Assembly (NCBI RefSeq): GCF_026898095.1
Contig: NZ_CP114015.1
Coordinates: 248,001-312,000, forward strand
DNA: 64,000 nucleotides
Direction of reading: 5' to 3'
Source of the DNA: Arthrobacter sp. ATA002
GTDB taxonomy: Bacteria; Actinomycetota; Actinomycetes; Actinomycetales; Micrococcaceae
The notes under the pieces are model-generated. The model was not told the DNA's origin and made no database searches. It was given only the letters and a program-made list of their open reading frames with translations. A program made the translations under genes and the position numbers. Positions 10,092-42,030 of the stretch are shown here, piece after piece (position 1 is the stretch's first letter; each line of letters starts with the position of its first letter).

Positions 10092-10134
10092 CCCGACATC
10101 CCGGTGCCCGGGACAAACCAGGGGAAACCCTGAG

Positions 10135-10176
10135 TCATCCCTAAGGGGGACCCCGGGTTCCCGCCGAATCATCCCT
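10135..10176 (+). promoter_or_regulatory. Direct repeat TCATCCCT with CCCTAAGGG palindrome
   Basis: TCATCCCT occurs at 10135-10142 and 10169-10176 (34 bp apart, about three helical turns); the first overlaps the palindrome CCCTAAGGG (10139-10147). Both are in the short gap before the second ATPase gene. This looks like a regulator binding region for the transporter operon; the regulator is unknown. Confidence 0.35.
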
Positions 10177-10259
10177 CGGAACGGTTCGTTTCCTCCCCGC
10201 TGTCGCCTACGGTTGAGGGAGCCCCCCCGCACCAGCACCCGTCCAACGTGAGGATCACC

Positions 10260-11213: not shown

Positions 11214-11217
11214 AACC

Positions 11218-25300: not shown

Positions 25301-26662
25301 GTGGGCAACACTTCGTCGCAGACTTCCAGCCCGGCCCTGAGCCGGCGCATCCTCGCACTGGCCGTTCCGGCGCTGGGTGCCCTCATCGCCGAACCACTGT
25401 TCCTGATCGCCGATTCCGCCATCGTGGGGCACCTGGGCGTCAACCAGCTCGCCGGAGTGGGGCTGGCGTCCACTGTGCTGCAAACCGCCGTCGGCCTCAT
25501 GGTGTTCCTGGCGTACTCGACCACCGGAACCGTGGCGCGCTACCTGGGCGGCGACCGGCACCGCGAGGCCGTGGCGGCGGGCCGCGACGGCATCGGCCTG
25601 GCGCTGATCCTGGGCGTGCTGCTCTCCGCCGCCGGCATCCTGGCCGCACCGTGGCTGGCCTCCGCACTGGGAGCCACCGGAGAGGTCCACCGGTACGCGG
25701 TGGACTACCTGCAGTATTCCATGCCGGGGCTGACCGCCATGCTGGTGGTGCTGGCCGCCACCGGCGTGCTGCGCGGACTGCAGGACACCCGCACCCCGCT
25801 GGCGGTGGCCGGCGTCGGCTTCGGTGTGAACATTGGGCTGAACTATCTGCTGGTGTACGGCTTTAACCTGTCAGTGGCCGGTTCCGCGCTGGGGACAAGC
25901 ATCACGCAGTGGGGAATGGCCGGGGTGTATCTGGTGCTGGTGGGCCGGATGGCACGGCGGGCAGGAGTTCCACTGCGCCCCACGGCCGCGGGCATCCGGG
26001 CCACCGCCCACGTGGGGTCCTGGCTGATGCTGCGGACGCTGAGCCTGCGGCTGGCCGTGCTCGCCGCAGTATTCGTGGCCACGGCCCAGGGCCCGCAGTC
26101 CCTGGCGGCCCATCAGCTGGTGATGACCGTCTTCACCTTCCTGGCCTTCGCCCTGGATGCCCTGGCCATCGCTGCGCAGGCACTCATCGGCAAGGAACTG
26201 GGCGCCGGCAACCGGGCCCTGGCGCGGGAGCTGACCCGGAGAATGATCCGCTGGGGTGTCGGATTCGGGGTGGGAACCGGCGCGCTGCTGGCGGCGGCGG
26301 CGCCCTTTGCCGGCTGGATCTTCACGCCCGACGCCGGTGTCCAGTCCGCGCTGACCGCCGGACTGTGGGTGCTCGCAGCATCCCAGCCGATATGCGGGCT
26401 GGTGTTTGTGCTGGACGGCGTGCTCATCGGCGCCGGCGACGCCCGCTACCTGGCGCTGACCGGAGTGCTGAACCTGCTGGCCTACCTGCCGCTGCTGTGG
26501 TGGGTGCAGGCCGCCGGCCTGGCCGGGCCCGGCGGCATCGCCTGGCTGTGGGCTGCCTTCGCCCTTGGTTACATGAGCGCGCGGGCGGTGACCCTGACCT
26601 GGCGGATCCGGCAGGATGCGTGGATGGTCACCGGGGCGGCGCCGGGCGCGGCAAGCGACTAA
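25301..26662 (+). CDS. MATE family efflux transporter (DinF-like)
   Basis: The 453-residue protein has 12 hydrophobic segments in two homologous halves. The opening helix (LALAVPALGALIAEPLFLIA) followed by DSAIVGHLG is typical of the DinF branch of MATE antiporters, as is QDTRTPLAVAGVGFGVNI. These export cationic drugs or metabolites using Na+ or H+. GTG 25301 lies 9 nt after the MFS gene, so the two exporters are probably co-transcribed. Confidence 0.92.
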   Translation: MGNTSSQTSSPALSRRILALAVPALGALIAEPLFLIADSAIVGHLGVNQLAGVGLASTVLQTAVGLMVFLAYSTTGTVARYLGGDRHREAVAAGRDGIGLALILGVLLSAAGILAAPWLASALGATGEVHRYAVDYLQYSMPGLTAMLVVLAATGVLRGLQDTRTPLAVAGVGFGVNIGLNYLLVYGFNLSVAGSALGTSITQWGMAGVYLVLVGRMARRAGVPLRPTAAGIRATAHVGSWLMLRTLSLRLAVLAAVFVATAQGPQSLAAHQLVMTVFTFLAFALDALAIAAQALIGKELGAGNRALARELTRRMIRWGVGFGVGTGALLAAAAPFAGWIFTPDAGVQSALTAGLWVLAASQPICGLVFVLDGVLIGAGDARYLALTGVLNLLAYLPLLWWVQAAGLAGPGGIAWLWAAFALGYMSARAVTLTWRIRQDAWMVTGAAPGAASD

Positions 26663-27788: not shown

Positions 27789-27980
27789 TCAGTCGAAGAT
27801 CTCCTTGCTGATGTCGGTCGGGGCGTCATACCGGCGTTCGGGCAGGTTCTGCAGCGCGTCCAGTACCGACGAATCCGCCTTGGCTCCCTGGGCTTTTTTC
27901 ACGATGTCGTCCCTGGACGCGGGATAGTCCAACCCGCCCAGCGCCTTCTGAATGTCGATGGGGCTCGGTTTGTCCGCCAT
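27789..27980 (-). CDS. DUF2795 domain protein
   Basis: The 63-residue protein has the DUF2795 pattern: IQKALGGLDYPASRDDIVKKAQ followed by LDALQNLPERRYDAPTDISK. Relatives are small, soluble actinobacterial proteins of unknown function. ATG 27980 is chosen over an upstream in-frame start because AAGGAG precedes it and it gives the whole domain without extra sequence. It lies downstream of the GT2 gene. Confidence 0.88.
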   Translation of the reverse strand: MADKPSPIDIQKALGGLDYPASRDDIVKKAQGAKADSSVLDALQNLPERRYDAPTDISKEIFD

Positions 27981-28009: not shown

Positions 28010-28912
28010 TCACTGTCCGAACACCTGCTCGGCAGCGTCTGTGGAACGGTCCGGGACCGTTGTGGGTGATTCCAAATGCACGGCACCGGACGGGAGCAGG
28101 CCTGCTCCGCCGTACTTCTCCATAACCCGCCACTGTGCCGCAACATCCTCGCCGGCGTGACCCGGCGGCAGGTCCTGCCAGAAACCAAATCCGCCGCAGT
28201 CCACGAGTTTGGCGCGGTCAAAGAGCACGCACGCCCCCACCCAGGCCACTTTGTACAGCTGCCAGGCCCCGGCGGGAAGGCCCAGGCCCGCGGCAAGGTG
28301 GGTGAGGTTCGCGGCGTTGTGCAGCGGCCAGCGGCCGAAGCCCGGCCCGCCCCGGCGGATCCGTTCCGGACGCACGGGTCCGGACCACGGTTCGAAGGAC
28401 TCCTGCTCACCGGGCCGCCGGTCCTGCAGGTAGGACAGACCCTGCACCGCAGCACCGACAAATCCGCAGCCGGCCTCCGCCAGCGCACCGGCCATCCGCC
28501 GGAGCATGTCCGGCTCCAGCCAAACATCGTTGTCCAGATAGAGCACCAGCGGGGCGTCGGCCAAATCCAGCAGGTGCTGGCGCTGCTGGGCGAGGCCGCG
28601 CACCGGCAGGTTCCGCTCCAGCCGTACCGGCCGGCCCTGGGCGCGGAGCACCCGGACCATGGCGGCCGCCGCCGGATGGTTCCACGACGGCTCCGCGGAA
28701 CTTTGGTCGCTGACCACCACGCCAAAGTCCGGGCCGTCCTGCGCGGCCAGCCCGGCCAGGGTCACACCGAATTCGGCCGCGCGGTTCCGGGTGGGAATCA
28801 GGACCTGCAGGAAACCGGCCGGCCGTTGCCCGCGGCGCCGGCGCCCTCCAGCCCCCATTCGCCGGACCATCTCCGGTTCATGGCCCGGCCCCTGCTTCCT
28901 CCCGGCTTCCAT
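28010..28912 (-). CDS. Family 2 glycosyltransferase
   Basis: The 300-residue GT-A protein has LQVLIPTRNRAAEFGVTLAG at the start of the nucleotide-binding fold and the metal-binding DxD in VLYLDNDVW. There are no membrane helices. It probably transfers a nucleotide-activated sugar to an envelope or exopolysaccharide glycan. The ATG at 28912 overlaps the end of the HldE gene by 35 nt and has GGAGG about nine bases upstream; an internal ATG at 28870 is possible. It is the last glycosyltransferase of the second minus-strand operon. Confidence 0.82.
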   Translation of the reverse strand: MEAGRKQGPGHEPEMVRRMGAGGRRRRGQRPAGFLQVLIPTRNRAAEFGVTLAGLAAQDGPDFGVVVSDQSSAEPSWNHPAAAAMVRVLRAQGRPVRLERNLPVRGLAQQRQHLLDLADAPLVLYLDNDVWLEPDMLRRMAGALAEAGCGFVGAAVQGLSYLQDRRPGEQESFEPWSGPVRPERIRRGGPGFGRWPLHNAANLTHLAAGLGLPAGAWQLYKVAWVGACVLFDRAKLVDCGGFGFWQDLPPGHAGEDVAAQWRVMEKYGGAGLLPSGAVHLESPTTVPDRSTDAAEQVFGQ

Positions 28913-30472
28913 CCCCGCCGGCCTCCACCGGGTCCGCTGCCGGCCGCGCCTGCTCCTCCACCGGCCGGCCGGCTGCGGGACGCCGGCGCACCGCCGATGC
29001 CTGGATCCGCTCCACTACGGCACTGGTGGAATGGTCCGCCACATAGTCCAGGATCCGCACCTGGCCGCCGGCGGCCAGCACCACCGGCGTTTCCTGCAGC
29101 ATTTCGGGGGAGTAATCCCCGCCCTTGGCATAAACGTCCGGGCGCAGCGCTTCAATCAGCGGAATCGGCGTATCGGTGTCAAAGACGGTGACGTAGTCCA
29201 CGCAGCTCAGCGCGGCGATCACTGCCGCACGGTCGTGGACCGGGTTGATCGGGCGGCCTGGTCCCTTCAGGCGTGCCACCGAGCCGTCGCTGTTCAGCGC
29301 CACCACGAGGATGTCGCCCAGGGCCTTCGCCTGCTGCAGATAGCGGGTATGGCCGCGGTGCAGTACATCAAAGCAGCCGTTGGTGAGCACTATCCGCTTG
29401 CCCGCCGCCCGGTCCGCGGCCACGCGGGCGCGCAGCTCCCCATGGGGCAGCGCCGTGTCGGCCAGCGCCGTCAGATGCAGTGCCAGGTCCGCCGACGTGC
29501 AGACGGAAGTTCCGGCGCGCTGCACCACGATATCGGCGGCGTTCTGGGCCAAATCCGCCGCGGTACTCAGCGGAAGGCCGGCAACGCGGGCCAGGGTCAG
29601 GCACGCCACAAACGTGTCACCGGCCCCGGAGGCGTGCTTCTCCGCGGCGGGGCGGGCCCAGGTCCGGTGCACCCCACCGTCTCCGGCGACCAGGACGGTG
29701 CCCTCCCGGTCCAGGGTGACGACGGCGGATGCGGCGCCCGCGGCGCGGAGCAGGTCCCGGCCGCGGCTGATAATGTGACCGGCGCGGTCGGTCTGCGGTT
29801 CCAGGACCTCACCCAGCAGACGGGCGGTTTCCTGCGCGTTGGGCGTGACGACGTCGGGCTCCAGCCCGGCCCAGAGCGCCGGATCATGGGCGTCGACCAC
29901 GGTAAACCTGCTGCCGCGGGCGGCGGCCAGCGCCTCCCGCAGCAGTCCGTGCAGCAGCCCGCTCCCGTAATCGCAGACCACCACCGCGTCCGTGCCCTGC
30001 AGCCAGGCCTCCAGCGCCGCAGCAATGCGTTCCTCCGCATCGGCCGGCACCGGGCTCCCGCCGTCGTCCATTCGCAGCAGCACCTGATCCCCGGCCTGCA
30101 CCCGGTACTTGGTTGCCGTCCGGGCGGCCGGATGGGAGTGCATCTGCCGCAGGTCGATGCCCGCGGCCGCCAAAGGCCGCGCAGACGGCGGCCTGGCCCG
30201 TCCTCGCCCACCAGCCCCGCCAGTTGTACCCGGGCGCCGAGGGACTGAAGATTCATGGCGGTGTTGGCGGCGCCGCCCGGCGAGTAGTCCCGCCGCCCAA
30301 TGTCCACCACGGGGGCTGGAGCTTCCCGGCAGAACCGGTCCGTGGTGCCGGAGAACCAGCCGTCCAGCATGACATCGCCAATGACGGCAATGCGGGGTGC
30401 CAGCCCGGCCAGGCGGGCGGGCAGCCACGGAGCCAGGCTGCGCAGCCCGGCCAGGTCCTGCGGCCCGCTCAC
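28878..30472 (-). CDS. hldE: HldE-like heptose-phosphate kinase/nucleotidyltransferase, copy 1, frameshifted
   Basis: The N-terminal PfkB-family kinase has IAVIGDVMLDGW, SPGGAANTAMNLQSLGA and the catalytic SGAGDTF. The C-terminal nucleotidyltransferase has TNGCFDVLHRGH (HxGH motif) and KGGDYSPEMLQETPVV. This two-domain order is that of HldE, which phosphorylates D-glycero-D-manno-heptose 7-phosphate and then makes the nucleotide-heptose. A missing T near 30172 splits the kinase. GTG 30472 overlaps the ALDH stop (GTGA). After the second domain is a charged tail of about 40 residues. Sugar specificity is inferred from family and neighbours. Confidence 0.85.
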
Positions 30473-31890
30473 TCCAGCCTTCCCGCCTGCGGCAGGCCCA
30501 CATGGACGACTTTGACCAGGCTGAACTCGTCCAACAGTTCGGGCCCGTAGCCGAAACCACTGCCGCTGTCTCCGCGGGGCTGGGCCGAACCGCCGGGAGC
30601 ACCGCCGAAGACCGCGTTGATTTTCACGGTTCCCACGGGCAGGGCGGCCACGGCGCGGTGCGCGGAGTCGATGCGGGGCGTGAGCACGGTGGCGGCCAGG
30701 CCGAACCGGTCCGCGGCCGCCAGGGCGAGCCCCTCCTCGAAGCTGTCCACCACCTGCACGGGAGCAACCGGGCCGAAGGTTTCCTCCGTGAACACCGCCA
30801 TTGGGTGCGAGCAGTTCAACAGCACGGTGGCCGGATAGAAGGCGCCCGGCCCGGGCGGGACCGTGCCTCCTTCGGCCAGCTCCGCGCCGCCGCGCACGGC
30901 CCCGGTGACCTGGGCATGTACTTCGGCCCGCAGCCGTTCATCCACCAGCGGGGCCCGCACCGCGTTCCGGTTGCGGCGCCGGGCTTCCCGGATCAAGGCC
31001 TCGCAGAACGGCCCGGCAACGGCGCGGTGGACATAGATGCGTTCGGCGGCGGTGCACATCTGTCCGTTGTTGCTGAAGGCTCCGAGGGCTGCCTGCTCCG
31101 CTGCCCAGTCCGGGTCCACTCCGGCGTCAATGAGCAGCGGATCATTGCCGCCATTCTCCCGGATGACGTGGGCACCGGTCAGGGCGCCGGCCCGGGCGAT
31201 CCGTGCCCCGGTGACACTGGAGCCCACGTGGGCCAGCAGGTCGACCCCGCCCTCCAGGCTTAGCAGCGCCCCGGTTTCGGCGCCCCCGGGCAGGGTGGTG
31301 AAGATCCCGTCCGGGAAGAAGGGTGCGAGCAGTTCCCCGAGCAGCGCCCCGGTGTGCGGGGACCGTTCACTGGGTTTGTGGATGACGGCGTTGCCGGCCA
31401 CCAGCGCCGCACCGATCAGGCCGGACGCCACCGCCACCGGATCATTCCACGGTGTGAGCAGCACGGCGACGCCGCGCGGTTCGGTGACGGTGTAGTCCGC
31501 CGCCAGCACCGGTCCGCGCAGGCTTCGTCCGCGGTGCACCGGTCCCAGTTCGGCGTATTGCTCCAGCGCGGCGACCCCGGCGGCCACGCCTTCCAGTGCC
31601 TCGTTCAGGGGCTTTCCGGTTTCCCGGGTGTTCAGGTCCGCCAGCTCCCGCGCATGTTCAGCCACCGCCGCTGCCGCCGCGCGGACCGCCCTGCCCCGCG
31701 CACTGGGATCCGTGGCCGCCCAGCCAAGACGGGCAGCCCGTGCGGCCCGGACAGCCGTTTCGACCTGGTCCCGGCCGGCGGCGTCCAGTTCGCCCACAAG
31801 GGTGCCGTCGGCCGGATTATGCACTGCCAGGCGTCCGGCCGGTAAATCCTTGCCGGGGGAGGCCTGGGTGGAAGCGGCGCTGGCGGACAT
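30469..31890 (-). CDS. Aldehyde dehydrogenase family protein
   Basis: The 473-residue NAD(P)-dependent dehydrogenase has the catalytic Cys279 in NNGQMCTAAERIYV and general base Glu245 in RENGGNDP, plus the cofactor motif HKPSERSP. ATG 31890 has GGAGGAG upstream. It lies directly before the HldE copy with a GTGA overlap, which suggests a role in the same sugar pathway, perhaps oxidising a sugar aldehyde or detoxifying one. The substrate is not predictable from sequence. Confidence 0.9.
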   Translation of the reverse strand: MSASAASTQASPGKDLPAGRLAVHNPADGTLVGELDAAGRDQVETAVRAARAARLGWAATDPSARGRAVRAAAAAVAEHARELADLNTRETGKPLNEALEGVAAGVAALEQYAELGPVHRGRSLRGPVLAADYTVTEPRGVAVLLTPWNDPVAVASGLIGAALVAGNAVIHKPSERSPHTGALLGELLAPFFPDGIFTTLPGGAETGALLSLEGGVDLLAHVGSSVTGARIARAGALTGAHVIRENGGNDPLLIDAGVDPDWAAEQAALGAFSNNGQMCTAAERIYVHRAVAGPFCEALIREARRRNRNAVRAPLVDERLRAEVHAQVTGAVRGGAELAEGGTVPPGPGAFYPATVLLNCSHPMAVFTEETFGPVAPVQVVDSFEEGLALAAADRFGLAATVLTPRIDSAHRAVAALPVGTVKINAVFGGAPGGSAQPRGDSGSGFGYGPELLDEFSLVKVVHVGLPQAGRLE

Positions 31891-31999
31891 GGAACTCCTC
31901 CGGATCGACGGTGCAGGGCAACTTCGTGTGTAGGGTTCCTACCCGTTTGGCCGCGCTTTACACGGATTTCCGGCGGAAGATTTTTTCTCCCTCCTGCGG

Positions 32000-32028
32000 T
32001 TGGGATCGACAGTGCGAGGACCTAGGGT
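32000..32028 (+). promoter_or_regulatory. Sigma-70-type promoter candidate for the GT9 gene
   Basis: TTGGGA (32000-32005), a 17-bp spacer and TAGGGT (32023-32028) form a good housekeeping-type promoter about 110 bp before the GT9 start, in the gap divergent from the ALDH gene. Confidence 0.5.
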
Positions 32029-32136
32029 GGGGCCAGGCAACAGCCAGGCTGCCAGCCGGAGAGCCGGTCCGGTGACGGGCGGACGGCACCGCAGCGGCAC
32101 GTGTAACGGGGACGGGAACCGGGAAGGGGACGGCGC

Positions 32137-33324
32137 ATGGCGGAAAAAGGGGCAGCTGATGAAGCCGGGCAGGCGGGGGCGCAGCACGGGGGAGAGCAGA
32201 CTGCCGCGCGGCCGGGGGTGCGCCGCGGGGTCGGTCCGGTCCTGGCGCCGTTTCCGGAGGTGGGCCGGATCGCCGTCCTGCGCGGCGGCGGCCTGGGTGA
32301 CCTGATGTTTGCCATGCCTGCCCTGGACGCCCTCGCGGCGGCCTATCCGGACGCGGAGATCACGCTGCTGGGCACCCCGCTGCATGCGGCCCTGCTGGCA
32401 GGCCGGCCCGGACCGGTGCACCGGGTGGAGGTGCTGCCGCCGGCTCCGGGCATCCGTCCCGGCCGGGAGAACCCGCCCGCCCTGGCCGGTTTCCTGGCGT
32501 CCATGCGCGCCCGGCGCTTCGATGTGGCGGTGCAGGTGCACGGCGGCGGGCGTAATTCCAATCCTTTCCTCCTGCGGCTGGAGGCACGGCATACGGTTGG
32601 CACCCGGACTCCCGACGCGGCCCTCCTGGAACGCACCATTCCCTACGTTTACTACCAGCATGAGGTGCTGCGGGCCCTGGAAGTGGCGGGCCTGGCCGGT
32701 GCCGCTCCGCTCTCCCTGGAGCCGCAGCTGGAGGTCCTCCCGGCGGAGGAGGAGGAAGCGGCCGCGTATCTGGTCCCGGGCCGGGACCTGGTGACCCTGC
32801 ATCCCGGGGCCACGGATCCGCGGCGCCGCTGGCCGGCGTCGGCCTTTGCCGCCGTGGCCGCGCAGGCCGCCGCCGACGGCTGCCGGGTCCTGGTCGTCGG
32901 TGACGACGGCGACCGGGACCTCGCCGAGCAGGTCACGGCTCTGGGCCTCGCGGCGGCCGGGCCCAGAGCGGACATCGATTCCGTGGCCGGCAAGCTGGAG
33001 ATCGGCACCCTTGCGGCACTGCTCAGGGCCAGCGCCGTGATGGTCGGAAACGACAGCGGCCCCCGGCATCTGGCCCAGGCGGTGGGAACGCCCACGGTGG
33101 GCGTGTACTGGTTCGGAAACGTGATCAACGCCGGCGCCATGGGACGGACCCGGCATCGGGTGCACATGTCCTGGGTGTCCGCCTGTCCGGTCTGCGGCGC
33201 CGATGTCACCCAGGTCGGCTGGACGGCTGAACGCTGCCCCCATGATGATTCCTTCGTGGCTTCGGTGGACCCGGCGGCTGTGTACGCCGACGTCGCCGAT
33301 CTGCGGTCCGCGCCGCCGGCTTGA
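32137..33324 (+). CDS. Family 9 glycosyltransferase (heptosyltransferase-like), copy 1
   Basis: The 395-residue GT-B protein has the GT9 N-terminal RIAVLRGGGLGDLMFAMPAL, a C-terminal VTLHPGATDPRRRWPASAFA and the nucleotide-binding VMVGNDSGPRHLAQAVGTPT. GT9 enzymes include ADP-heptose:LPS heptosyltransferases, but here there is no LPS. Near the C-terminus three Cys (CPVC and a later C) could bind metal. ATG 32137 has GAAGGGG upstream. It is on the opposite strand from the rest of the heptose genes but embedded among them. Confidence 0.9.
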   Translation: MAEKGAADEAGQAGAQHGGEQTAARPGVRRGVGPVLAPFPEVGRIAVLRGGGLGDLMFAMPALDALAAAYPDAEITLLGTPLHAALLAGRPGPVHRVEVLPPAPGIRPGRENPPALAGFLASMRARRFDVAVQVHGGGRNSNPFLLRLEARHTVGTRTPDAALLERTIPYVYYQHEVLRALEVAGLAGAAPLSLEPQLEVLPAEEEEAAAYLVPGRDLVTLHPGATDPRRRWPASAFAAVAAQAAADGCRVLVVGDDGDRDLAEQVTALGLAAAGPRADIDSVAGKLEIGTLAALLRASAVMVGNDSGPRHLAQAVGTPTVGVYWFGNVINAGAMGRTRHRVHMSWVSACPVCGADVTQVGWTAERCPHDDSFVASVDPAAVYADVADLRSAPPA

Positions 33325-33351
33325 CCGCCGCGCCCCCGCAGCGGCGGACGG

Positions 33352-34053
33352 TCAGGGCCAGGAATCCTCCTCCTCATGGCAGATGACCATCTCCCGGATT
33401 TCGCAGCCTCGGGGCTGGTGCAGCGCAAAGAGGATCGCCTCGGCCACCCGCACCGGGTCGTTGAGCCGGGAGTCGTCCTGCGGCTTGTACTGCTCGGTGC
33501 GGTCCTCGAAGAAGTTGGTCTTCATCCCGGAGGGGATCATGGTGGTCACGCCCATGCGGCCGCGGGTTTCGGCGGCGAGGGCACGGCTGAAACCCACCAC
33601 GCCGAACTTCGAGGCGCAGTACGCCGTGGCGTCGGAAACAGCCTTGATGCCCAGGCTGGAGGCAATGGTTACGGCCCGGCCGTGGCTCTCGAGCAGATAG
33701 GGGAGGGCGGCGCGCACCACGGATACGGTGCCGAGGAGGTTCACTCCGATCACCTTTTCCCATTCTTCGGCCGCGACGTCCTCCAGGCGCCCGCAGCGGT
33801 CAATCCCCGCTGCGGTTACCACGGCGTCCAGCCCGCCCAGCGATTCGGCGGCGTCCCGCACTGCCGCCTCAACGGCAGTCCGGTCCGCGACGTCCACTTC
33901 CACGGCCTTCGCCGCGCTGACCGTGCTGATGTTCCGGTCCAGCACGACGGCGGTTCCGCCGGCGCCGGTCACGGCCCGGACGACGGCGGCCCCCAGGCCG
34001 GACCCGCCGCCGGTCACGAGGACCCGGCCGGGATTGGAGAGCTGCAAAGTCAT
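33352..34053 (-). CDS. Short-chain dehydrogenase/reductase
   Basis: The 233-residue classical SDR has cofactor motif TGGGSGLG (14-21) and the active-site Tyr145-x3-Lys149 (YCASK), with Ser in TIASS. It is not an HldD-type extended SDR (which would be about 310 residues with GGxGFIG), so it is not the usual heptose 6-epimerase. ATG 34053 has AAAGGAC upstream; the earlier in-frame start lacks support. It follows the second HldE after 71 nt. A role as a sugar oxidoreductase is possible. Confidence 0.87.
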   Translation of the reverse strand: MTLQLSNPGRVLVTGGGSGLGAAVVRAVTGAGGTAVVLDRNISTVSAAKAVEVDVADRTAVEAAVRDAAESLGGLDAVVTAAGIDRCGRLEDVAAEEWEKVIGVNLLGTVSVVRAALPYLLESHGRAVTIASSLGIKAVSDATAYCASKFGVVGFSRALAAETRGRMGVTTMIPSGMKTNFFEDRTEQYKPQDDSRLNDPVRVAEAILFALHQPRGCEIREMVICHEEEDSWP

Positions 34054-34124
34054 GGATAGTCCTTTCCTAGGTGTTCCGGTCCGCGGTGTTCCGGGACCGA
34101 AGCGGATGAGTTGCCGGCCGCTGC

Positions 34125-35510
34125 CTAACCCACCCGGGCCAGGGCGGCGGCCAGCGCGGTGGTGGAACGGGCCGGGTGATAGGGGACGGTGACGGTTTCC
34201 CCGCCCCACGCCCTGATCAGCCGGGCTTCAGGCAGCTGGTCCTCGCGGTAGTCCCCGCCCTTGACCCAGATGTCCGGCCGCAGCCGCTCCAGGGCCGCCT
34301 CGGGGGTGTCTTCCTCGAAGATCAGCACCCCGTCCACGCAGCCGAGGGACAGCAGCAGCTCGGCCCGGTCCTCCTGTCCAATAATCGGGCGCTGGTTCCC
34401 CTTGAGCCGGCGGACCGACGCGTCGGAATTCAGGACCACGATCAGGCAGTCGCCCAGCCGGCGGGCCGCGGACAGGGTCCGGGCATGTCCGGCGTGGAGC
34501 AGGTCGAAGCACCCGCCGGTGGCAACCACGGTGCCGCCGCGGCCCCGCACCGCCCCGGCGGCGGCCATGGCGTCGAGGCTGCCGCTGTGCAGCTGTACGG
34601 GTGCTTTTCCCCGGTGCAGGGCGGCCACTCCGCCGGCCGCAAGGAAACCGGCGGCTGCCTGCACTGCCTGTTCCGCGGCAGGTTCCAGGGCGGTTCCGCG
34701 GGCCAGGGCCAGGGCGAGGGTGGCGGCGAACCGGTCACCGGCGCCGCAGGTGTCGGCGGCCTGGACGTCCGGGGCGGGAATCACCTGCGGCAGTCCTGCG
34801 GCAGGGTGCACCAGCGCCCCCAGGGCTCCCAGGGTCACCACCACCGAACGGCTCTTCCACCGCTCCAGCAGCACTGCCGCGGCATGCAGGGCTGCCGCAA
34901 TTCCTCCGGTGCCGGCCCCTGCGCCCACGCCGCCCGGCCCGGACGCGCTTTGCCGCGCTTCGGACAGATTGGGGGTCACCGCGGCCACGCCGGGCACCGG
35001 GCCGGCTCCGGCCGGATGCGGATCCCAGATGACCGGCACCCGCCCGGCCGCGGCTTCCAGGGCGTGGCGCAGCTGCGGCACAGCGGTCAGTCCGCGGCCG
35101 TAGTCGGCCACCACCACCGCATCGGCGCCGGCTATGACGGACAGCATCTCGCGGGTTACTGCGGGAACCGGCGGCGGTGAGCAGCCCTCGTCAAAACGGA
35201 CGACGGCCTGCGTGCCGGCGCGGATGCGGGTCTTTACCGGCGTCGGCGCTCCCGACGGGCCGGCGGTGACGGCAATCCCGGCGAGGGCGGCACGCAGCTC
35301 TGCCGAAGCGCCGTCGTCGGACAGCACCGTCACCAGGGCCACATCGTGGCCGTCGCGGGCGAGCATCCGGGCCACCAGGCCGGCTCCGCCGGCACGCCTG
35401 CGGATACTGTCCACATCCACCACCGGAACCGGGGCATCCGGCGACAACCGCTGCGCGCTGCCGGTGATATCGGTGTCCAGCAGGACGTCGCCCACCACCA
35501 CGGTCTTCAC
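34125..35510 (-). CDS. hldE: HldE-like heptose-phosphate kinase/nucleotidyltransferase, copy 2
   Basis: This intact 461-residue protein has the same two domains as copy 1: a PfkB-type kinase with [20 protein letters not shown] and catalytic GAGD in CGAGDRFAA, then a nucleotidyltransferase with GGCFDLLHAGH and KGGDYREDQLPEA. The two copies differ a lot outside the motifs, so they are old paralogues, perhaps for different nucleotides or sugars. GTG 35510 overlaps the GmhA stop by GTGA. Confidence 0.9.
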   Translation of the reverse strand: MKTVVVGDVLLDTDITGSAQRLSPDAPVPVVDVDSIRRRAGGAGLVARMLARDGHDVALVTVLSDDGASAELRAALAGIAVTAGPSGAPTPVKTRIRAGTQAVVRFDEGCSPPPVPAVTREMLSVIAGADAVVVADYGRGLTAVPQLRHALEAAAGRVPVIWDPHPAGAGPVPGVAAVTPNLSEARQSASGPGGVGAGAGTGGIAAALHAAAVLLERWKSRSVVVTLGALGALVHPAAGLPQVIPAPDVQAADTCGAGDRFAATLALALARGTALEPAAEQAVQAAAGFLAAGGVAALHRGKAPVQLHSGSLDAMAAAGAVRGRGGTVVATGGCFDLLHAGHARTLSAARRLGDCLIVVLNSDASVRRLKGNQRPIIGQEDRAELLLSLGCVDGVLIFEEDTPEAALERLRPDIWVKGGDYREDQLPEARLIRAWGGETVTVPYHPARSTTALAAALARVG

Positions 35511-36175
35511 AGCTGCTCCTTTCCGCCACGGCGGAGAACTTCGGCGTCAAAGGCCCGGCACACGGCGTGCAGGGCAATCAGGTGGGCCTCCTGCGCGTTG
35601 GCGGCCTGCGCGTTGATGCTCACGGCTTCGTCGCAGGCCGTACTCAGCGGATTCGGGCCGCGCCCGGTCAGGGCCCATGTGGTGATCCCCGCGGTGCGGG
35701 CGGTTTCGGCGGCGCGCAGCAGGTTGGGGCTGCGGCCGCTGGTGGACAGCAGAATCAGTACATCCCCGGTCCGCCCGTGGCCCAGCACCTGCCGGGCGTA
35801 CAGCTGGTCGAACCCGTAATCATTGGCAATGGCCGTCACCGCGGACGTCTCGGCATGCAGTGCGATGGCGGAGAACGGCCGCCGGTCGGCGTCGAACCTG
35901 CCCACCAGCTCCGCCGTCAGGTGCTGGGCCTCGGCCGCCGATCCGCCGTTGCCGGCGGCGAGCAGCCGCTGCCCGGCCAGGAGCCGCACGGCGAGTTCCG
36001 CGCCCCAGCCGGTGAGCCGGGCGGCCTGCGCTTCGAGCGAGGCGACCGCCGGCCGCAGATCAGACAGGTGCTGCAGGACCGCGCGGTGGGCGGCAGACGG
36101 TATCGGCCGGGCAGCAGGGGCGGGCTGCGCGTCGGCCAGCAGGGTTCCGGCCGCGTCCGGGGTTGTCGGTTTCAC
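35507..36175 (-). CDS. gmhA: Sedoheptulose 7-phosphate isomerase (GmhA-like SIS protein)
   Basis: The 222-residue SIS-domain protein has [20 protein letters not shown] and [17 protein letters not shown], the phosphosugar-binding motifs of GmhA. GmhA makes D-glycero-D-manno-heptose 7-phosphate from sedoheptulose 7-phosphate, the first step to nucleotide-heptose. The N-terminal about 45 residues are Pro/Ala-rich and disordered-looking. GTG 36175 overlaps the GT4 stop by GTGA. The next gene is HldE. Confidence 0.93.
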
Positions 36176-37440
36176 AGGGCCTTCCCTCCCAGCGGCTGCA
36201 GGCGGTTCCGGCGGGCAGCGGCCGTACCGCCCACTGCCACTTGGTAGGCTTTCTCGGTATCGGCAGCCACCCGGTCCCATGAGTAGCGTGCCCGGGCCCG
36301 CTGCCGGCCGGCAGCACCGAGACGGCGGGCATACCCCGGATTGTGCAGCAGCTCGGCCAGCGCTGCGGCCAGGGCCTGCGGATCCCTGGGCGGCACATGC
36401 AGGCCCGTTTTACCGTGTACCACGGTGTCGATCAGCCCGCCGACGGCTGATGCCACGACCGGAACACTGCAGGCCATGGCCTCCAGCGGCACAATCCCGA
36501 ACGGCTCGTACCAGGGGGCGCAGACCACGGCGTCGGCGCTGCGCAGCACCGCGGGCATTTGTTCCCGCGGAACCTGTCCCCGCAGCAGCACGCGGTCCAC
36601 CACGCCGAGGATGCGGGCCAGGGCCAGCAGCCGCTGGGCTTCCGGATCGGAGGCCAGCCCGGCGGAGTCGGAGGCGCCGCCCACGATCAGGAGTTCGACG
36701 TCGTCGTGCCCGCTTTCCGCGAGCAGCGCCAGCGCCTGCACCGCCAGGTCCACGCCTTTGCGCGGAACCAGGCGGCCGACGACGGCGATCCGGAACCGCT
36801 GCCCCTTGCGTTCCGCCGGCCCGCCGGACCCGAAGAGCTCCAGGTCCACGCCGCAGGGGGCCACGGAAATCCGGCCTCCCGGAACACCCATGGCCTTGAG
36901 TTCAAACACCTCGTCGGAGCAGGTGGCGATCACCCGGTCCGCCGTCCGCCCGACGGACGGCTCCAGCCAGGTGCGCTGCGGCGGGCTGGTGTCTTCGGCT
37001 CCCTGATGGCGTTTTTTCACGGTGCCCAGGGCGTGGAAGGTCTGCAGCACTGGAACGGGATACCCCGGGGCCTCAACGTGCCGCGCGGCTTCAAGCGCGG
37101 CCACGCCGGACATCCAAAAGTGGGCGTGCACCACGTCCGGCGGTGCGGCGCCCCAGTCTGCCGAGATGCCCTCGGCCAGCTCGTGCATGTACGGCAGCAG
37201 AACGTCCTTGGGCAGGGCCCGGGGCGGTCCTGCCTCCACGTGCACCACCTCGAGTCCGTCGCGGACCGGAACCACCGCCGGTAAACCGGGATCATCACGG
37301 CGGGTGTAGACGCGGACGGAGTGGCCGCGGCGGGCCAGCGCCACCGACAGGGCGGCGACATGCACGTTCTGCCCGCCCGCGTCCACGCCGCCCAGGGCGG
37401 CCAGCGGGCTGGCGTGCTCGGACACCATTGAAATTTTCAC
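36172..37440 (-). CDS. Family 4 glycosyltransferase (MshA-like GT-B)
   Basis: The 422-residue protein has the GT4 N-terminal loop [20 protein letters not shown], the [13 protein letters not shown] region and the C-terminal donor motif [20 protein letters not shown]. It resembles D-inositol 3-phosphate glycosyltransferases and other retaining GT4 enzymes. The acceptor is unknown. GTG 37440 overlaps the preceding glycosyltransferase stop (GTGA). Confidence 0.92.
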
Positions 37441-38497
37441 TGCGTTCCCCCTCCGGCAGCTGACAGTTCCGTATTCCGCTGCAGCGGCAGCTCCCCGGCG
37501 GCAGCCGGATCCCTCATATCGGGGCTGCTGCCACCCCGGGTCATGATGTCCGAAAGCGTGTTGTCCCAGGCCGCCAGGAAAGCGGCCAGGCCGTACTGCT
37601 GCAGGGCAAAGTCCCGGGCGGCCCGGCCCCGCTGCCGTGCCTCCCCGGGGTCGCCAAGCAGGTCCGCTGCCGCCTGCACCAGCTCATCGACGTCGGTTGA
37701 GACGGCCCCGGCCTCCGGGGAACGGCGCGGACAGCTTCGGTGGTGGCCAGGGCCAGCACGGGCAAGCCCAGATGCATTGCTTCGAGCAGGGACAGCCCGA
37801 GGGAGGTCCAGCGCATGGGATGAACATAGGCCCGGCATCCGCTCAGCTCCGAATGCAGGGCATCGGCCGGCAGGTCACCCCGGACTGTTAGCTCATCCGG
37901 GCCAAGACCGGTGGCGGCGGCCAGGCCTCCGGTCCCCATGCCGAACACTTCCAGCCGGGCGGCGCGGGCAAAGCGGGGCAGCAGGTCCGTTCCGGTGACC
38001 CGCCAGCGGCGCACCGGTTCATTGATGACTACGCCCAGATGGCCGCGTTCGCCGGTGTACCGGTAGCCGGGGTCCGGGATGCCGTGCTCGATGACCCGCA
38101 CCAGCGCGCGCCCGTTATCCCAGAACACCGCATTGAAATGGCTGACGTGCACGATGGGAATGCTGCTTTGGCCGGCGAGCGGATGGCTGGTGGACGGAAC
38201 TGCGCCGCGCGGAGTGTTGTGCTCCAGGTACACGGCCGGAAGGTCCCGGCCCGGGCGCCGTCCCAGCAGGCGCTCGCAGGCGGCGAGCTCCTCCGGACGC
38301 TGGAGCACGACGGCATCGATCCCGGCGTCACGCAGGTCCCCGGGAGCGCATTCAACGGCCGATGCCGGCCACTCCCGCCCGCCCCGGCCCAGCCCCCAGG
38401 GGCCGCCTTCGGGCGTAGCCGGCAGGATGTACTCATGCGGCCCGCGGACAAAGGCTTCCATCCAGCCTCCGTGCACATGCCAAAGCAGGATCCTCAT
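37437..38497 (-). CDS. Second glycosyltransferase (GT4-like), frameshifted
   Basis: ATG 38497 starts [19 protein letters not shown]; the C-terminal half has the GT-B donor pattern [20 protein letters not shown]. The frame breaks after TTEAVRAVP at about 37716 where one C is missing; the other frame continues [20 protein letters not shown] to the stop at 37437. The repaired protein has about 353 residues. The start has GAGGA upstream and overlaps the GT9 stop (ATGA). Confidence 0.83.
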
Positions 38498-39554
38498 GCA
38501 GTCCTCGTTTCTCTGCGCGTTCCCAGGGACGTAACGCCGGTGGTCAAGCGGTGCACGGCCTCCACGACCTGTTCCGGTGTCACCCCGGAAAGGCAGGGTG
38601 CCCCGGCTCCGGGCACTGACGGGCCCGGCTGAGCCGGCACGGCGCGTTTTGGTCGCCCAGCAGTTCCAGCGGCACGCGGTACGGTGCCCACCGCACGGCC
38701 GGAACCACAGGGGCGAACAGGCTGACCACGGGGGTTCCGACCGCCGCCGCCAGGTGGGCCGGTCCGGTGTTCCCGACGACGACGGCGGAGGCTCCGGCCA
38801 GCACGCCGGCCAGGGCACGCAAGTCGGTGCGGCCGCCCAGATCTCCGCCGGCCACGCCCGCGACGGTGGCGGTCAGCCGGGTTTCGCCCGGGCCGCCGGT
38901 GACCAGGACCCGGTGTCCGGCGGCAGCGAGCAGCTCCACTGCGGCGGCGTGGTGCAGGGGCGGCCAGGCGCGGGCCGGCACCGCGGCGCCGGGGTGGACC
39001 ACCACATAGGGCCCGTTCCCCACCAGGTGCCGGACATCGCCGGGACCGGTCACGCGCAGGCGGCCGTCGTCCTCGTCGGGCAGCCGGTAACCGGCCCCGG
39101 CGGCGATCTGCAGGGCGCGCTCGGCCTCGGGCTGATCCTCGGGAAAATCCTCACCGGGCCGCAGGCGGGTATCCAGCAGCGACCCGGCATAGTCCACGGA
39201 GGCACCGGCGATCCGCTGCACACCCGCCAGGCGCAGCACCAGGGCCAGCGGCAGCGGGGACTGGTGAAAGGAGGTCAGGATCACGGCTTCCTCAATGCCG
39301 GCGCTGCGCACCTCCTGCTCCAGGCGGGCCAGGGAAGCGGCGGTGACCGGCGGCGCCGGATCGGTAATCCAGGGCGCGGTCCAGGTCAGGACCGTGTCGG
39401 CACCGGGCAGCAGGCGGCCGGCGTCGGCGCCCTGCGGCCCGCAAAGCAGGGTGACCCTGGTCTGCGGGTCCGCCGCGACGGCGCGGACCGCGGGCCCGGC
39501 GAGCAGGACGTCTCCCGCACTGTCCAGGCGCGCGACCAGGACGCCGCGGGTCAC
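38494..39554 (-). CDS. Family 9 glycosyltransferase, copy 2, frameshifted near C-terminus
   Basis: GTG 39554 begins VTRGVLVARLDSAGDVLLAG; later VVVHPGAAVPARAWPP and AVVVGNTGPAHLAAAVGTP give a clear GT9. The first frame ends at 38580, but adding one C at about 38597 produces the family C-terminal motif CPEPGHPCL followed by SGVTPEQVVEAVHRL to TGA 38494, which overlaps the next ATG. About 353 residues. GTGA overlap with GmhB upstream. It is predicted to transfer heptose or another sugar. Confidence 0.87.
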
Positions 39555-40087
39555 GGACCCTCCAGCAGGAGTGCGACGGCGCCGGCCAGATCCCGGGCCA
39601 CCAGCGGCGCGGCTGCGGTTTCCGCCGGGAGGGTGACCGGCGTGGGCACCAGGACAGCCCGTGCACCGGCCGCTTCCGCTGCCGCCATGTCTGCCCCAAT
39701 GTCCCCAATGACGGCTACGTCGGCCGGCCGCAGGCCTGGCCGGGCACAGGCGCTGTGGATCATGCCGGGCTGCGGTTTGCGGCAGGTGCATCCGTCACCG
39801 GGACCGTGCGGGCACATTTCCCAGACGTCGAACGGGCCGAGCAGGTCCTGGATCCGCGAGTTAACGGCGGCCACCTGGGAACGCGTGAGCAGGCCGCGGG
39901 CCACACCGGACTGGTTAGTGACCACTCCGGTCCGGATGCCGGCCCGGCGCAGCTTCCGCAGGATGCCGGCGGCCTGCGGAAACGGATCCACCAGGCCGGG
40001 GTTCCCGTTGTACGGGACGTCGCGGACCAGCGTGCCGTCCCGGTCAAAGAGCACCGCGCGCGGCGGCTTCCAGTCCACATGTCCCAT
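39551..40087 (-). CDS. gmhB: D-glycero-D-manno-heptose bisphosphate phosphatase (GmhB-like HAD)
   Basis: The 178-residue HAD-superfamily phosphatase has the nucleophile/acid pair in LFDRDGT (D15, D17), the TNQSGVARG motif and the GmhB zinc site CPHGPGDGCTCRKPQPGM. It removes one phosphate from heptose 1,7-bisphosphate between the two HldE steps. An in-frame ATG six codons earlier (40105) is also possible. It is the first gene of the long minus-strand operon and is divergent from the third GT9 gene. Confidence 0.92.
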   Translation of the reverse strand: MGHVDWKPPRAVLFDRDGTLVRDVPYNGNPGLVDPFPQAAGILRKLRRAGIRTGVVTNQSGVARGLLTRSQVAAVNSRIQDLLGPFDVWEMCPHGPGDGCTCRKPQPGMIHSACARPGLRPADVAVIGDIGADMAAAEAAGARAVLVPTPVTLPAETAAAPLVARDLAGAVALLLEGP

Positions 40088-40240
40088 ACCGAACTTCTTC
40101 CCCATCCGTACCAGGCTCAAACACTTCCGCGTGCACTTCTTCTCCGCGCCGCCGCTGCGCTCAGCCTGCCGCCGTCTGTCTGGCAGGATGAGGTCCATTC
40201 GTTCCGGACGGCGGGACGGCGCGTCGGCAGGAGGGCCGGA

Positions 40241-41187
40241 ATGCAGCAGACCAGCGCACATCGAGGGCAGCCGGAACTCCTGGCCCTGCGCGCCCTGAAA
40301 CTGGGGGACCTGCTCGTGGCGGTACCCGCGCTGCGGGCACTCCGCCGGGCCTTTCCGGAGCATTTCATCTCCTACGCGGCGCAGGAGTGGCTGCTGCCGG
40401 TCCTGAAACTGGTGGGAAGCGTGGATGCACTGCTGCCGCTGCACGGGCTGGATGTTCCCATTCCGCTGGAGCCGGGGCGGATTGACGTGGCCGTGAACCT
40501 GCACGGCAGCGGTCCGGAAAGCACCGGCCGGCTGGAGGCGCTGAAGCCGCGCCGCCTGCTCGGACATGCCGCCCCGGGACTGCCCGGACCCGCCTGGCGG
40601 GACGGCGTCCATGAGCGGGAGCGCTGGGCTGACCTCATGACCTGGCACGGGGTTCCGGCCGATCCGCTGGACTACCTGCTGCTGCCACCGGCATCGCCAA
40701 GCCCGGCACCGGGTGCAGCGGTCATCCATGTGGGAGCCGCCTACGGCAGCCGGCTCTGGCCGGTGGAACGGTTCGCTGCGGTCGCCGCCGAGCTGCACCG
40801 GGCCGGACTCCGCGTGCTGTTCACCGGCAGCACCGGTGAACGCCCCGGGCACTGGCCGCTGCGGAACTGGCAGGACTTCCGGCTGCTGCTGTTGCCGCCG
40901 GGCAACTGGACCTGGACGGGTTCGCGGCCGCCGTCGCAGGAGCCGCCCTGGTGGTTTCCGCCGACACCGGCGCCGCGCATTTGGCCTCGGCGTACGCCCG
41001 GCCGTCGGTGGTGATCTTCGGTCCGGCCCCCGTCGCGGAGTGGGGTCCCCCGGACGGCCCGCACATTGCGCTGACGGATGAGAGCCGCCGCCGGGGGGAT
41101 ACGTTCGCCGTCGACCCGGATCCGGCGCTGCTGGCGGTGTCGGTGCAGGATGTGCTGGCGGCCGTCGAAAAACTGGATGTTCCGTAG
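40241..41187 (+). CDS. Family 9 glycosyltransferase, copy 3, frameshifted
   Basis: ATG 40241 (AGGAGG upstream) begins with a short head and ALRALKLGDLLVAVPALRAL, the GT9 N-terminus; AVIHVGAAYGSRLWPVERFA and LVVSADTGAAHLASAYARPS follow. The reading frame breaks at about 40846 (one C missing from CCCC), after which AALAGLPAAAV-like sequence and the donor-site motif are in another frame to 41187. Repaired length is about 315 residues. It is transcribed away from GmhB. Confidence 0.87.
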
Positions 41188-41205: not shown

Positions 41206-42030
41206 TTAAGCGCTCGCTGTCTGGGCCCCGACTGCTGCCCCCGCCTGGGCCCTGGCCACTGCCGCGGCCTTGGCCGGTGCGGGACGGCCCAAAATCTCAT
41301 GCTGGAGTTTGACCAGGATCTTGGCCAGCCGGCGTGACACCTGCATTTGGGTCATCCCCAGGCGCTCGCCGATGACCTGCTGCGGCTCCTCGTGAAAGTA
41401 CCGGCGGCAGAGCAGGTCCTTCTCGCCGTCGTCCAGGGTGCGGATAGCTTCCGCGAGGACCACGAGATTCTCCGCCTGCTCGAGCCGGCCGTCGATGCTT
41501 CCGTGGACGTCGGCCAGGAAACCGCCCTGGAAGGGCGCATCGAGGGAGTCCGGCTGGAGGCTGCTGTGACACGTCAACGCCTCCGACACGATTTTTTCGG
41601 TCTGCCCCAGCTCCCGGGCCAGTTCCGGCAGGGACGGCTCACGGGCCAGCCGCTGGGTCAGGGACGGATACACCTTGGCGACGGTGGTGCGCAGGTCCTG
41701 GACCTCACGCGGCGGGCGCACCATCCAGGACAGGTCCCGCAGATAGCGTTTAATTTCACCGTGGATGGTGGGCACGGCAAACGCGGGAAAGCGCCGGCCG
41801 ATGGCCGGATCAAACCGCCGGACAGCTTTGATGAGCCCGATGTAGGCCACCTGGCGGAGGTCGGCGCGGTCGCGGCCCTGGCCGGCATAGGCTGCGGCCA
41901 CGCTGTCCGCGAGATCCCGGTGCTGCAGGATCAGTTCGTTGTGCAGGGCCTGCTGCAGGTCACCGTGGGCACCGCGTGCCTTGGTGAAGTGGTCGAGGGC
42001 ATCGGACTCAGGAAGCGTCATGGGCAGCAT
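41206..42030 (-). CDS. SigB/SigF-family alternative sigma factor
   Basis: The 274-residue sigma-70 protein has region 2 (DLRQVAYIGLIKAVRRFDP), region 3 (LRTTVAKVYPSLTQRL) and region 4 (GERLGMTQMQVSRRLAKIL), without region 1.1, as in general-stress/sporulation group 3 factors. The C-terminal about 25 residues are Ala-rich. No RsbW-type anti-sigma factor gene is adjacent; an RsbQ/PAS module is about 20 kb away. ATG 42030 has AGGA upstream, and an ATG three codons later is also possible. Confidence 0.92.
   Translation of the reverse strand: MLPMTLPESDALDHFTKARGAHGDLQQALHNELILQHRDLADSVAAAYAGQGRDRADLRQVAYIGLIKAVRRFDPAIGRRFPAFAVPTIHGEIKRYLRDLSWMVRPPREVQDLRTTVAKVYPSLTQRLAREPSLPELARELGQTEKIVSEALTCHSSLQPDSLDAPFQGGFLADVHGSIDGRLEQAENLVVLAEAIRTLDDGEKDLLCRRYFHEEPQQVIGERLGMTQMQVSRRLAKILVKLQHEILGRPAPAKAAAVARAQAGAAVGAQTASA

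Follow-up and report, generated by a model that had tools for sequence, protein, structure and literature searches.

Why does a Gram-positive bacterium carry enzymes for a nucleotide-activated heptose together with glycosyltransferases of the heptosyltransferase type, and to what would the heptose be attached? The question is raised by an island at positions 28010-41187 of a 64-kb stretch of the genome of Arthrobacter sp. ATA002, which consists of one 3.9-Mb contig. This stretch is termed the window, and all coordinates below are window positions. The original prediction had named the island as the best candidate in the window for an undescribed system, with heptose synthesis and transfer in a Gram-positive host. 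The enzymes on which it was built (GmhA, GmhB, two HldE, and glycosyltransferases (GT) of the families GT9, GT4 and GT2, three, two and one, respectively) were all found in the island, and the host is a Gram-positive of the Arthrobacter group. The system is not undescribed, because the cwg operon of Streptomyces has this core, in identical order, behind a published sigma-E promoter; PMC6767563 and PMC5839063 give a cell wall glycan as its predicted product. We are confident that the island is the Micrococcaceae form of an actinobacterial cwg-type locus. Its product is, on balance, predicted to be an envelope glycoconjugate.

PMC6767563 contains the sigma-E promoter of the 12-gene cwg operon of S. 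coelicolor. The product predicted for this operon, a cell wall glycan, is credited to Hong et al. (2002) in PMC6767563 and in PMC5839063. The latter also annotates cwgH as a putative phosphoheptose isomerase and cwgI as a bifunctional synthase/transferase, and PMC3902916 places cwgA among the SigE targets. The printed cwg promoter was searched in 392 Streptomyces genomes and gave one exact match and three matches with one mismatch. Downstream of the exact match, a simple gene caller revealed 12 genes, encoding an epimerase, a carbamoyltransferase, a GT2, GmhB, GT9B, GT4B, GT4A, GmhA, HldE1, GT9A and two further GT2 enzymes, in this order. The genes cwgD to cwgJ all match the window, with 46-64% identity in the best pieces; at E 1e-5 the window has nothing that matches cwgA, B, C, K or L. 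The row GT4-GmhA-HldE reported for cwgG-H-I is present in the window, and directly upstream of it GmhB, a GT9 and a further GT4 follow the order of cwg. Since the CwgB carbamoyltransferase and the CwgC glycosyltransferase are among the proteins with no match, the window is regarded as a variant. This link to cwg is based on one complete Streptomyces region and the published annotation; two promoter regions were read. In the second of these (L119, one-mismatch promoter) cwgC and cwgG are present at 94% identity and cwgD and cwgF by their ends only, and cwgA, B, E and H-J are missing. There the start of cwgD runs into the end of cwgF, and cwgL has only a weak match within cwgC.

The features of the island are given below from right to left. 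Counts of loci refer to the best 80 of 252 confirmed loci, chosen by GmhA similarity, some of which are clipped by contig ends; G007 denotes a related genome.

41206..42030, minus strand: sigma factor gene of the SigB/SigF/SigG type, island-specific, co-occurring with GT4B (TIGR02980 202.5 bits, cut-off 234.35)
40193..41187, plus strand: GT9A, WaaC-like glycosyltransferase (PF01075; two frames here; start inferred from the G007 orthologue)
40098..40122, minus strand: predicted promoter GTTTGA-N14-GGGAA, about 10 nt upstream of the gmhB start
39551..40087, minus strand: GmhB, heptose 1,7-bisphosphate phosphatase (NF006506; PDB 3l8h, 4pnh; Asp and Zn ligands present)
about 38497..39554, minus strand: GT9B, heptosyltransferase-like (PF01075; C-terminal tail in another frame)
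about 37440..38497, minus strand: GT4B, retaining GT-B glycosyltransferase (weak Pfam GT4; two frames here)
36172..37428, minus strand: GT4A, glycosyltransferase like MshA and sucrose-phosphate synthase (TIGR03449 235 bits; 6kih, 3c48; phosphate-site residues)
35507..36175, minus strand: GmhA, sedoheptulose 7-phosphate isomerase (PRK13936/TIGR00441; 5i01; E65 and H180 present)
34125..35510, minus strand: HldE1, bifunctional heptose kinase/nucleotidyltransferase (PRK11316 264 bits; 5x9q, 4e84; GAGD, HxGH, R before STT)
33352..34053, minus strand: short-chain dehydrogenase/reductase (SDR) family oxidoreductase, core member (PF00106; in 74/80 loci)
32137..33324, plus strand: GT9C, heptosyltransferase-like (PF01075 91 bits; heptsyl_trn_II/I under cut-off)
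30469..31890, minus strand: aldehyde dehydrogenase (ALDH) family protein (PF00171 337 bits; in 41/80 loci)
28878..about 30472, minus strand: HldE2, second bifunctional HldE (TIGR02199 195.8 bits; N-terminal part in another frame)
28010..28912, minus strand: GT2 glycosyltransferase (PF00535; in 27/80 loci)
27789..27980, minus strand: DUF2795 protein of 63 aa, 3' of GT2 (PF11387; family in 8 loci including the window; association uncertain)

On the minus strand the genes thus run from the right in the order GmhB, GT9B, GT4B, GT4A, GmhA, HldE1, SDR, ALDH, HldE2 and GT2, and the plus strand carries GT9A and GT9C, which leaves GT9B as the only GT9 gene on the strand of the others. Two additions were made to the earlier list. 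Pfam and NCBIfam scans placed ALDH and SDR in the enzyme set, and the sigma gene, just outside the end given before, belongs to the island. PF01075 has three matches in the entire genome, and every one of them falls within the window. An open reading frame at 31939-33243 (minus strand), antisense to GT9C, was considered spurious and dropped.

The window encodes the full set of functions from sedoheptulose 7-phosphate to NDP (nucleoside diphosphate)-heptose, i.e., GmhA, heptose kinase, GmhB and nucleotidyltransferase, and the catalytic residues, the roles of which we presume, are present. In GmhA, H61, E65, Q172 and H180 (E. coli numbering) are found in the window and in all of 74 orthologues with a letter at these positions. 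GmhB possesses D11 and D13 in 63/63 sequences with a letter (5 gaps), as well as the Zn ligands C92 (68/68) and H94, C107 and C109 (67/68 each), and the position of K137 is occupied by I in 68/68, unlike in E. coli. The GAGD motif is present in all HldE1 (72/72) and HldE2 (54/54), and HxGH in 71/71 HldE1 with a letter and 54/54 HldE2. GmhB prefers the beta-type model NF006506 (106 bits) over the alpha-type model (36.8 bits), which fits the HldE-type route. Among solved structures, GmhA comes nearest to phosphoheptose isomerases (5i01) and the kinase domain of HldE1 to a heptose kinase. Family and structure-sequence searches, made without a tree including the non-heptose families, did not place GmhA or HldE with those families, the outcome that had been named as contrary to the original prediction. 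For the HldE nucleotidyltransferase domains (TIGR02199, cut-off 181.5), HldE2 passes with 195.8 bits and HldE1 narrowly misses with 178.1; that of HldE2 is the only domain among the NDP-heptose enzymes of the window that reaches an equivalog cut-off. The HldE2 orthologue of G007 scored 373 bits with PRK11316. It is very probable from these data that the locus makes NDP-heptose. Since a model search revealed no HldD over the cut-off in the genome (best 94 bits, cut-off 274.6), the heptose is expected to remain D,D.

The two HldE proteins may not supply the same donor. According to a 2024 paper (PMC11573728), the motif (F/L)XXGRSTT is found in nucleotidyltransferases (STTR5) whose products also include CDP- and UDP-heptose. 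HldE1 of the window reads YHPARSTT here; the Arg at the fifth position is kept in 70/71 HldE1, positions 1 and 4 vary and the full motif is absent. At the position of this Arg, the 54 HldE2 carry R (23), H (22), Q (5) or other residues (4). A tree was built of 56 rows, drawn from the window, L118, E. coli and 34 of the 80 loci; in it the 30 HldE1 and the 24 HldE2 fell on opposite sides of a branch with support 100/100. This separation in motif and tree makes it possible that HldE1 and HldE2 provide different sugar nucleotides. In 18 loci (e.g., L007:15888-16922, after HldE2, and L005:3973-5025) the island has as a neighbour an NDP-sugar epimerase/dehydratase family that was not recognised as such in the window; its members could act on NDP-heptose.

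The GT9 enzymes were compared with WaaC, the roles of whose site residues we presume. All scored over the cut-off of PF01075 and possess a WaaC-like site, with the exception of GT9B at one position. GT9A and GT9C orthologues carry D13 (all with a letter), K/R192, D261 and H266, and GT9B has N at the position of D261 in 73/73. The heptosyltransferase models TIGR02193 (48-84 bits, cut-off 185.3) and TIGR02195 (51-66 bits, cut-off 134.6) stayed under their cut-offs for two G007 orthologues and GT9C of the window. A structure model of the G007 GT9B (pLDDT 88.8) matched WaaF first (1psw, E 1e-15, TMq 0.73), followed by a Veillonella GT9 and WaaC, in agreement with the heptosyltransferase type assigned earlier. 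The model of the G007 GT4B (pLDDT 86) matched PimB', BshA and further GT4 enzymes.

The best matches of GT4A are a cyanobacterial sucrose-phosphate synthase and MshA; with TIGR03449 it scored 235 bits, under the MshA cut-off of 462.5. The residues K78, Y110, T134 and R154 of MshA, which we take to be its phosphate contacts, fit by their numbers the letters of chain 3c4q. In GT4A, K78 and R154 are conserved in 74/74 orthologues and in the Streptomyces copy, and Y110 is replaced by F in 73 and T134 by A in 74. All four residues are present in the MshA of this genome. Two other GT4 enzymes of the genome differ at these sites: one has G and P at the positions of K78 and R154, and the other has S at R154 and, owing to a late predicted start, no letter at K78. 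About 4 kb before the start of the window, at G000:C1:243063-244265, lies a gene whose protein passes the MshA cut-off with 506.6 bits. Because two MshA-type phosphate-binding residues are kept, we infer that the acceptor of GT4A may be phosphorylated and other than inositol 1-phosphate; this is the simplest reading of the residue pattern, and we hold its chances to be about even.

The conserved synteny expected in Micrococcales is present among the 80 loci, and the core is syntenic in most of them. The closest named ones by GmhA belong to Arthrobacter, Paenarthrobacter and Pseudarthrobacter. GmhA is present in all 80 by selection, GT4A in 78, GT4B in 77, HldE1 in 76, GmhB in 75, GT9B and SDR in 74 each, GT9A and HldE2 in 54 each, a sigma match in 46, ALDH in 41, GT9C in 39, GT2 in 27 and a carbamoyltransferase in 11. 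In a sample across the phylum, GT4B was found in 23/178 genomes (own included) and 18/136 genera, other classes included. Eighteen regions taken from the 22 other GT4B genomes all contain GT4A, GT4B, GT9B and HldE1, and 17 of them contain GmhB and 16 GmhA. The distribution is patchy, because five listed genomes of one genus (7-10 Mb) have no GT4B. HldE2 and the carbamoyltransferase are nearly mutually exclusive: among 88 loci of at least 15 kb, and with kinship ignored, 51 have only HldE2, 25 only the carbamoyltransferase, 11 neither and one both. The latter locus (L083) is a possible intermediate of the two forms. A diverged core (33-49% identity) with a different gene order was seen in L158, from another class of the phylum, and in L120-L125 and L127 the halves of the island containing SDR and GT9C are split in four genomes of the same genus, by about 11 (G002), 15 (G009), 17 (G008) and 22 kb (G014).

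The sigma gene adjoins GT9A. TIGR02980 is by far its best model, with 202.5 bits against a cut-off of 234.35 (208.4 for the G007 orthologue), and the protein is described here as SigB/F-type and not as a TIGR02980 member. Within the genus of the window, GT4B is present in 13/25 genomes (own included); the sigma (E 1e-20 or better) was found in exactly the same 13 and the other 12 have neither. Strong HldE matches are confined to these 13 genomes, and the identity of the sigma is 53-82% in the twelve of them besides the window's own. Upstream of gmhB, a motif GTTTAG-N14-GGGGAA is located 10 nt before the start codon in 30/38 cases. The pattern GTTT-N13..17-GGG[AT]A has a single match on both strands of the window, the one before gmhB. 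It was found in 31/39 intergenic stretches (window, L126 and L129 included), compared with a frequency over all of the loci of 0.0099 per 300 bases (one strand, true sites included). Of the 75 loci with GmhB, 69 could be judged after removal of two on the other strand and four with short upstream sequence: 37 have the motif and a linked same-strand sigma, one the motif only, two the sigma only and 29 neither (Fisher 6e-16). Three Amnibacterium and two Sinomonas loci have neither, and a third Sinomonas locus and L014 have the sigma and no motif. In the genus of the window, the pattern precedes gmhB in 11 of the 13 island genomes (window, L126, L129 and eight more), and the genome with the most divergent sigma (G010) has a weak version of the motif.

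Matches elsewhere are few. The stretches read contain one each in L126, L163 and L168. The motif was not found upstream of GT9B, GT4B, GT4A, GmhA, HldE1 or SDR in any locus, and it occurs before ALDH in 2/41, GT9A in 1/55 and the sigma gene in 1/47, in counts that take the best match per gene with paralogues not separated. In the whole genome, a stricter pattern gave nine sites compared with four in a reversed control; apart from gmhB, only three sites have a start codon at most 10 nt behind them, namely L170 at 9 nt, where the spacer is longer and no gene was called, L171 at 0 nt, within a called gene, and L174 at 4 nt. The proposed regulation centres on the gmhB promoter: the locus is probably controlled by its own linked sigma, and we read co-occurrence and motif as signs of a sigma dedicated to the island. 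Control appears to have been exchanged, because Streptomyces runs the same operon from an extracytoplasmic function (ECF) sigma-E promoter and the present island would use a SigB/F-type factor.

Several island genes are broken in the window. Ten of 46 genes comparable with G007 read in two or more frames, namely HldE2, GT4B, GT9A, GT9B (tail only), rplI for ribosomal protein L9 (15086-15531, two frames) and five others, and the G007 orthologues of HldE2, GT4B, GT9B and GT9A are all open. Pseudogene decay of the island was considered and rejected in favour of sequencing or assembly error, probably many small indels, because frameshifts also strike rplI and other genes. Two further observations concern the remainder of the window. 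The stretch 43490-46058, near the sigma gene, is the orthologue of an 869-aa G007 protein that carries bacterial Ig domains together with a weak LPXTG anchor, and reads in several frames here. At 9171-12099 adjacent genes have the appearance of duplicated pairs, with two matching places for each of two G007 proteins and an arrangement unlike that of G007.

A crude hydropathy scan, with a MATE transporter as positive control, revealed no series of membrane segments in the cwg-operon and island proteins tested (island GmhB not in the set); cwgJ, ALDH and HldE1 gave single borderline windows. The MATE gene lies at 25301-26662, about 1.3 kb from GT2, and its protein matches efflux models. Nine further families shared by the neighbourhoods are by Pfam epimerases, a LysR regulator, a polyketide-cyclase-like protein and proteins of unknown function, two of them with no match at all. 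The product could be finished inside the cell and exported by unlinked genes, or it could stay soluble.

From enzyme families, residues, synteny, the linked sigma and the promoter motif, all read from the DNA, we propose activities, an order of steps, an acceptor, a destination and a mode of control. The interpretation to which we incline, by a moderate margin of belief, is an assembly line in the cytoplasm whose product is an envelope glycoconjugate containing heptose and which is turned on by its own SigB/F-type sigma. Cytosolic GmhA, HldE and GmhB would make NDP-D,D-heptose. GT4A would start a chain on a small phosphorylated acceptor (inositol-phosphate-like or sugar-phosphate-like), to which GT4B, the GT9 enzymes and GT2 would then add heptose and other sugars, and SDR and ALDH may modify a sugar. 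An envelope destination is suggested because the cwg operon of Streptomyces belongs to the sigma-E regulon. A further and tentative suggestion, which we think rather improbable as a whole, is an unrecognised class of actinobacterial heptose glycoconjugates with a phosphorylated cyclitol or sugar base, an MshA-related enzyme, two nucleotide-heptose pools (HldE1, HldE2) and, in Micrococcales, a near single-target sigma.

Four other explanations were weighed against the assembly line. An ordinary secreted or capsular polysaccharide, with heptose as one of several sugars, a lipid carrier, and flippase and polymerase elsewhere in the genome, would account for so many GT families in one place and for the nearby MATE gene; GT2 and GT4 enzymes are typical of polysaccharide clusters. 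We consider it unlikely: a flippase, polymerase or exporter is absent from the named or scanned families that the 80 neighbourhoods share (the search was confined to these neighbourhoods), the tested proteins have no clear membrane segments and the MATE protein resembles efflux pumps. Equally unlikely in our view is a soluble small molecule containing heptose, either a specialised metabolite or a mycothiol-like pseudo-oligosaccharide, with no envelope glycan involved. A core with no membrane proteins by crude hydropathy and the similarity of GT4A to MshA and sucrose-phosphate synthase, which use small phosphorylated acceptors, agree with it, as do the carbamoyltransferase and epimerase of the cwg form; a resemblance to antibiotic sugar genes is possible as well, and a literature search on bleomycin-type sugar genes returned nothing relevant. 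However, no scaffold-forming enzyme is among the identified shared families, and the operon of S. coelicolor lies in the sigma-E cell-envelope stress regulon according to PMC6767563.

Protein O-heptosylation with NDP-heptose, as by TibC/Aah, would explain GT9-type enzymes in a genome with no HldD over its cut-off, and the GT9B model also matches TibC. It is very unlikely, because WaaF and WaaC are far better matches, TIGR04414 gave 18.2 bits against a cut-off of 200 and the further glycosyltransferases suggest an oligosaccharide. The least probable explanation, to which we give hardly any weight, is that heptose-family lookalikes act on hexose or pentose phosphates. The GmhA, GmhB and kinase domains do score under curated cut-offs, but all four pathway functions occur together, nearly all members examined have the catalytic residues, and the best structural matches of GmhA and of the HldE1 kinase domain are phosphoheptose isomerases and a heptose kinase, respectively.

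Several points speak against the assembly line for an envelope glycoconjugate as well. The envelope role leans on the regulation of the Streptomyces operon, and one Streptomyces region behind a one-mismatch cwg promoter (L119) has largely lost the operon, GmhA and HldE included. The families shared around the 80 loci include, as far as they could be named, neither an exporter nor an anchor, in a search for exporters confined to these neighbourhoods. Most proteins score under the NCBIfam curated cut-offs (GmhA 158 of 276 bits, GmhB 106 of 178), and GT9B may use a donor other than NDP-heptose because its D261 position is N. With respect to regulation, two of the 13 island genomes have only a degenerate promoter (G002 with one -10 base changed, G010 with the weak version), and the motif is also present at 11/75 GT9C-type places. 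The counts for the promoter, and those for the exclusion of HldE2 and carbamoyltransferase, include related species that are not independent.

The cwg genes have been called 'cell wall glycan' genes since 2002. In the open-licence literature we found no account of the heptose chemistry of a cwg-type locus and no structure of the cwg product. By the present analysis, cwg belongs to a family found across Actinomycetota, whose members combine a full NDP-heptose enzyme set with an MshA-like enzyme and, among Micrococcales, with a co-travelling sigma. It also makes two questions testable, namely to what the heptose is attached and whether NDP-heptose, a known ALPK1 agonist, is made by these Gram-positives.

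Comparison with known systems puts the island between several of them. It shares families, active-site residues and the GT9 fold with the E. coli ADP-heptose/LPS (lipopolysaccharide) inner-core pathway (GmhA, HldE, GmhB, WaaC, WaaF), whereas its host has no HldD over the cut-off and no LPS is expected, GT9B has N for D261 and the core includes the MshA-like GT4A. MshA, the inositol-phosphate glycosyltransferase of mycothiol synthesis, aligns with GT4A over nearly the full length and has K78 and R154 in common with it; GT4A differs by its score of 235 of 462.5 bits, by F for Y110 and A for T134, and the genome has a separate MshA over the cut-off. The autotransporter heptosyltransferases TibC/Aah are GT9-like and use ADP-D,D-heptose. 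The fold matches of the GT9B model include a structure of TibC with ADP-D-beta-D-heptose (TMq 0.40-0.56 for TibC in the matches listed), and their family model is far under its cut-off for the island GT9. The closest system is the cwg operon (SCO6179-6190), with which the window shares GmhB-GT9B-GT4B-GT4A-GmhA-HldE1 in order, plus GT9A, and with which the annotations of cwgH and cwgI agree. Only cwg has the epimerase, the carbamoyltransferase and three GT2, and only the window has HldE2, SDR, ALDH, GT9C, another GT2 and a linked SigB/F-type sigma with its own promoter type; HldE2 stands where cwg has the carbamoyltransferase. The new findings of the present analysis are the second, deeply separate HldE, the linked sigma with its conserved promoter, the phosphate-site residues of GT4A and a core with no apparent membrane protein.

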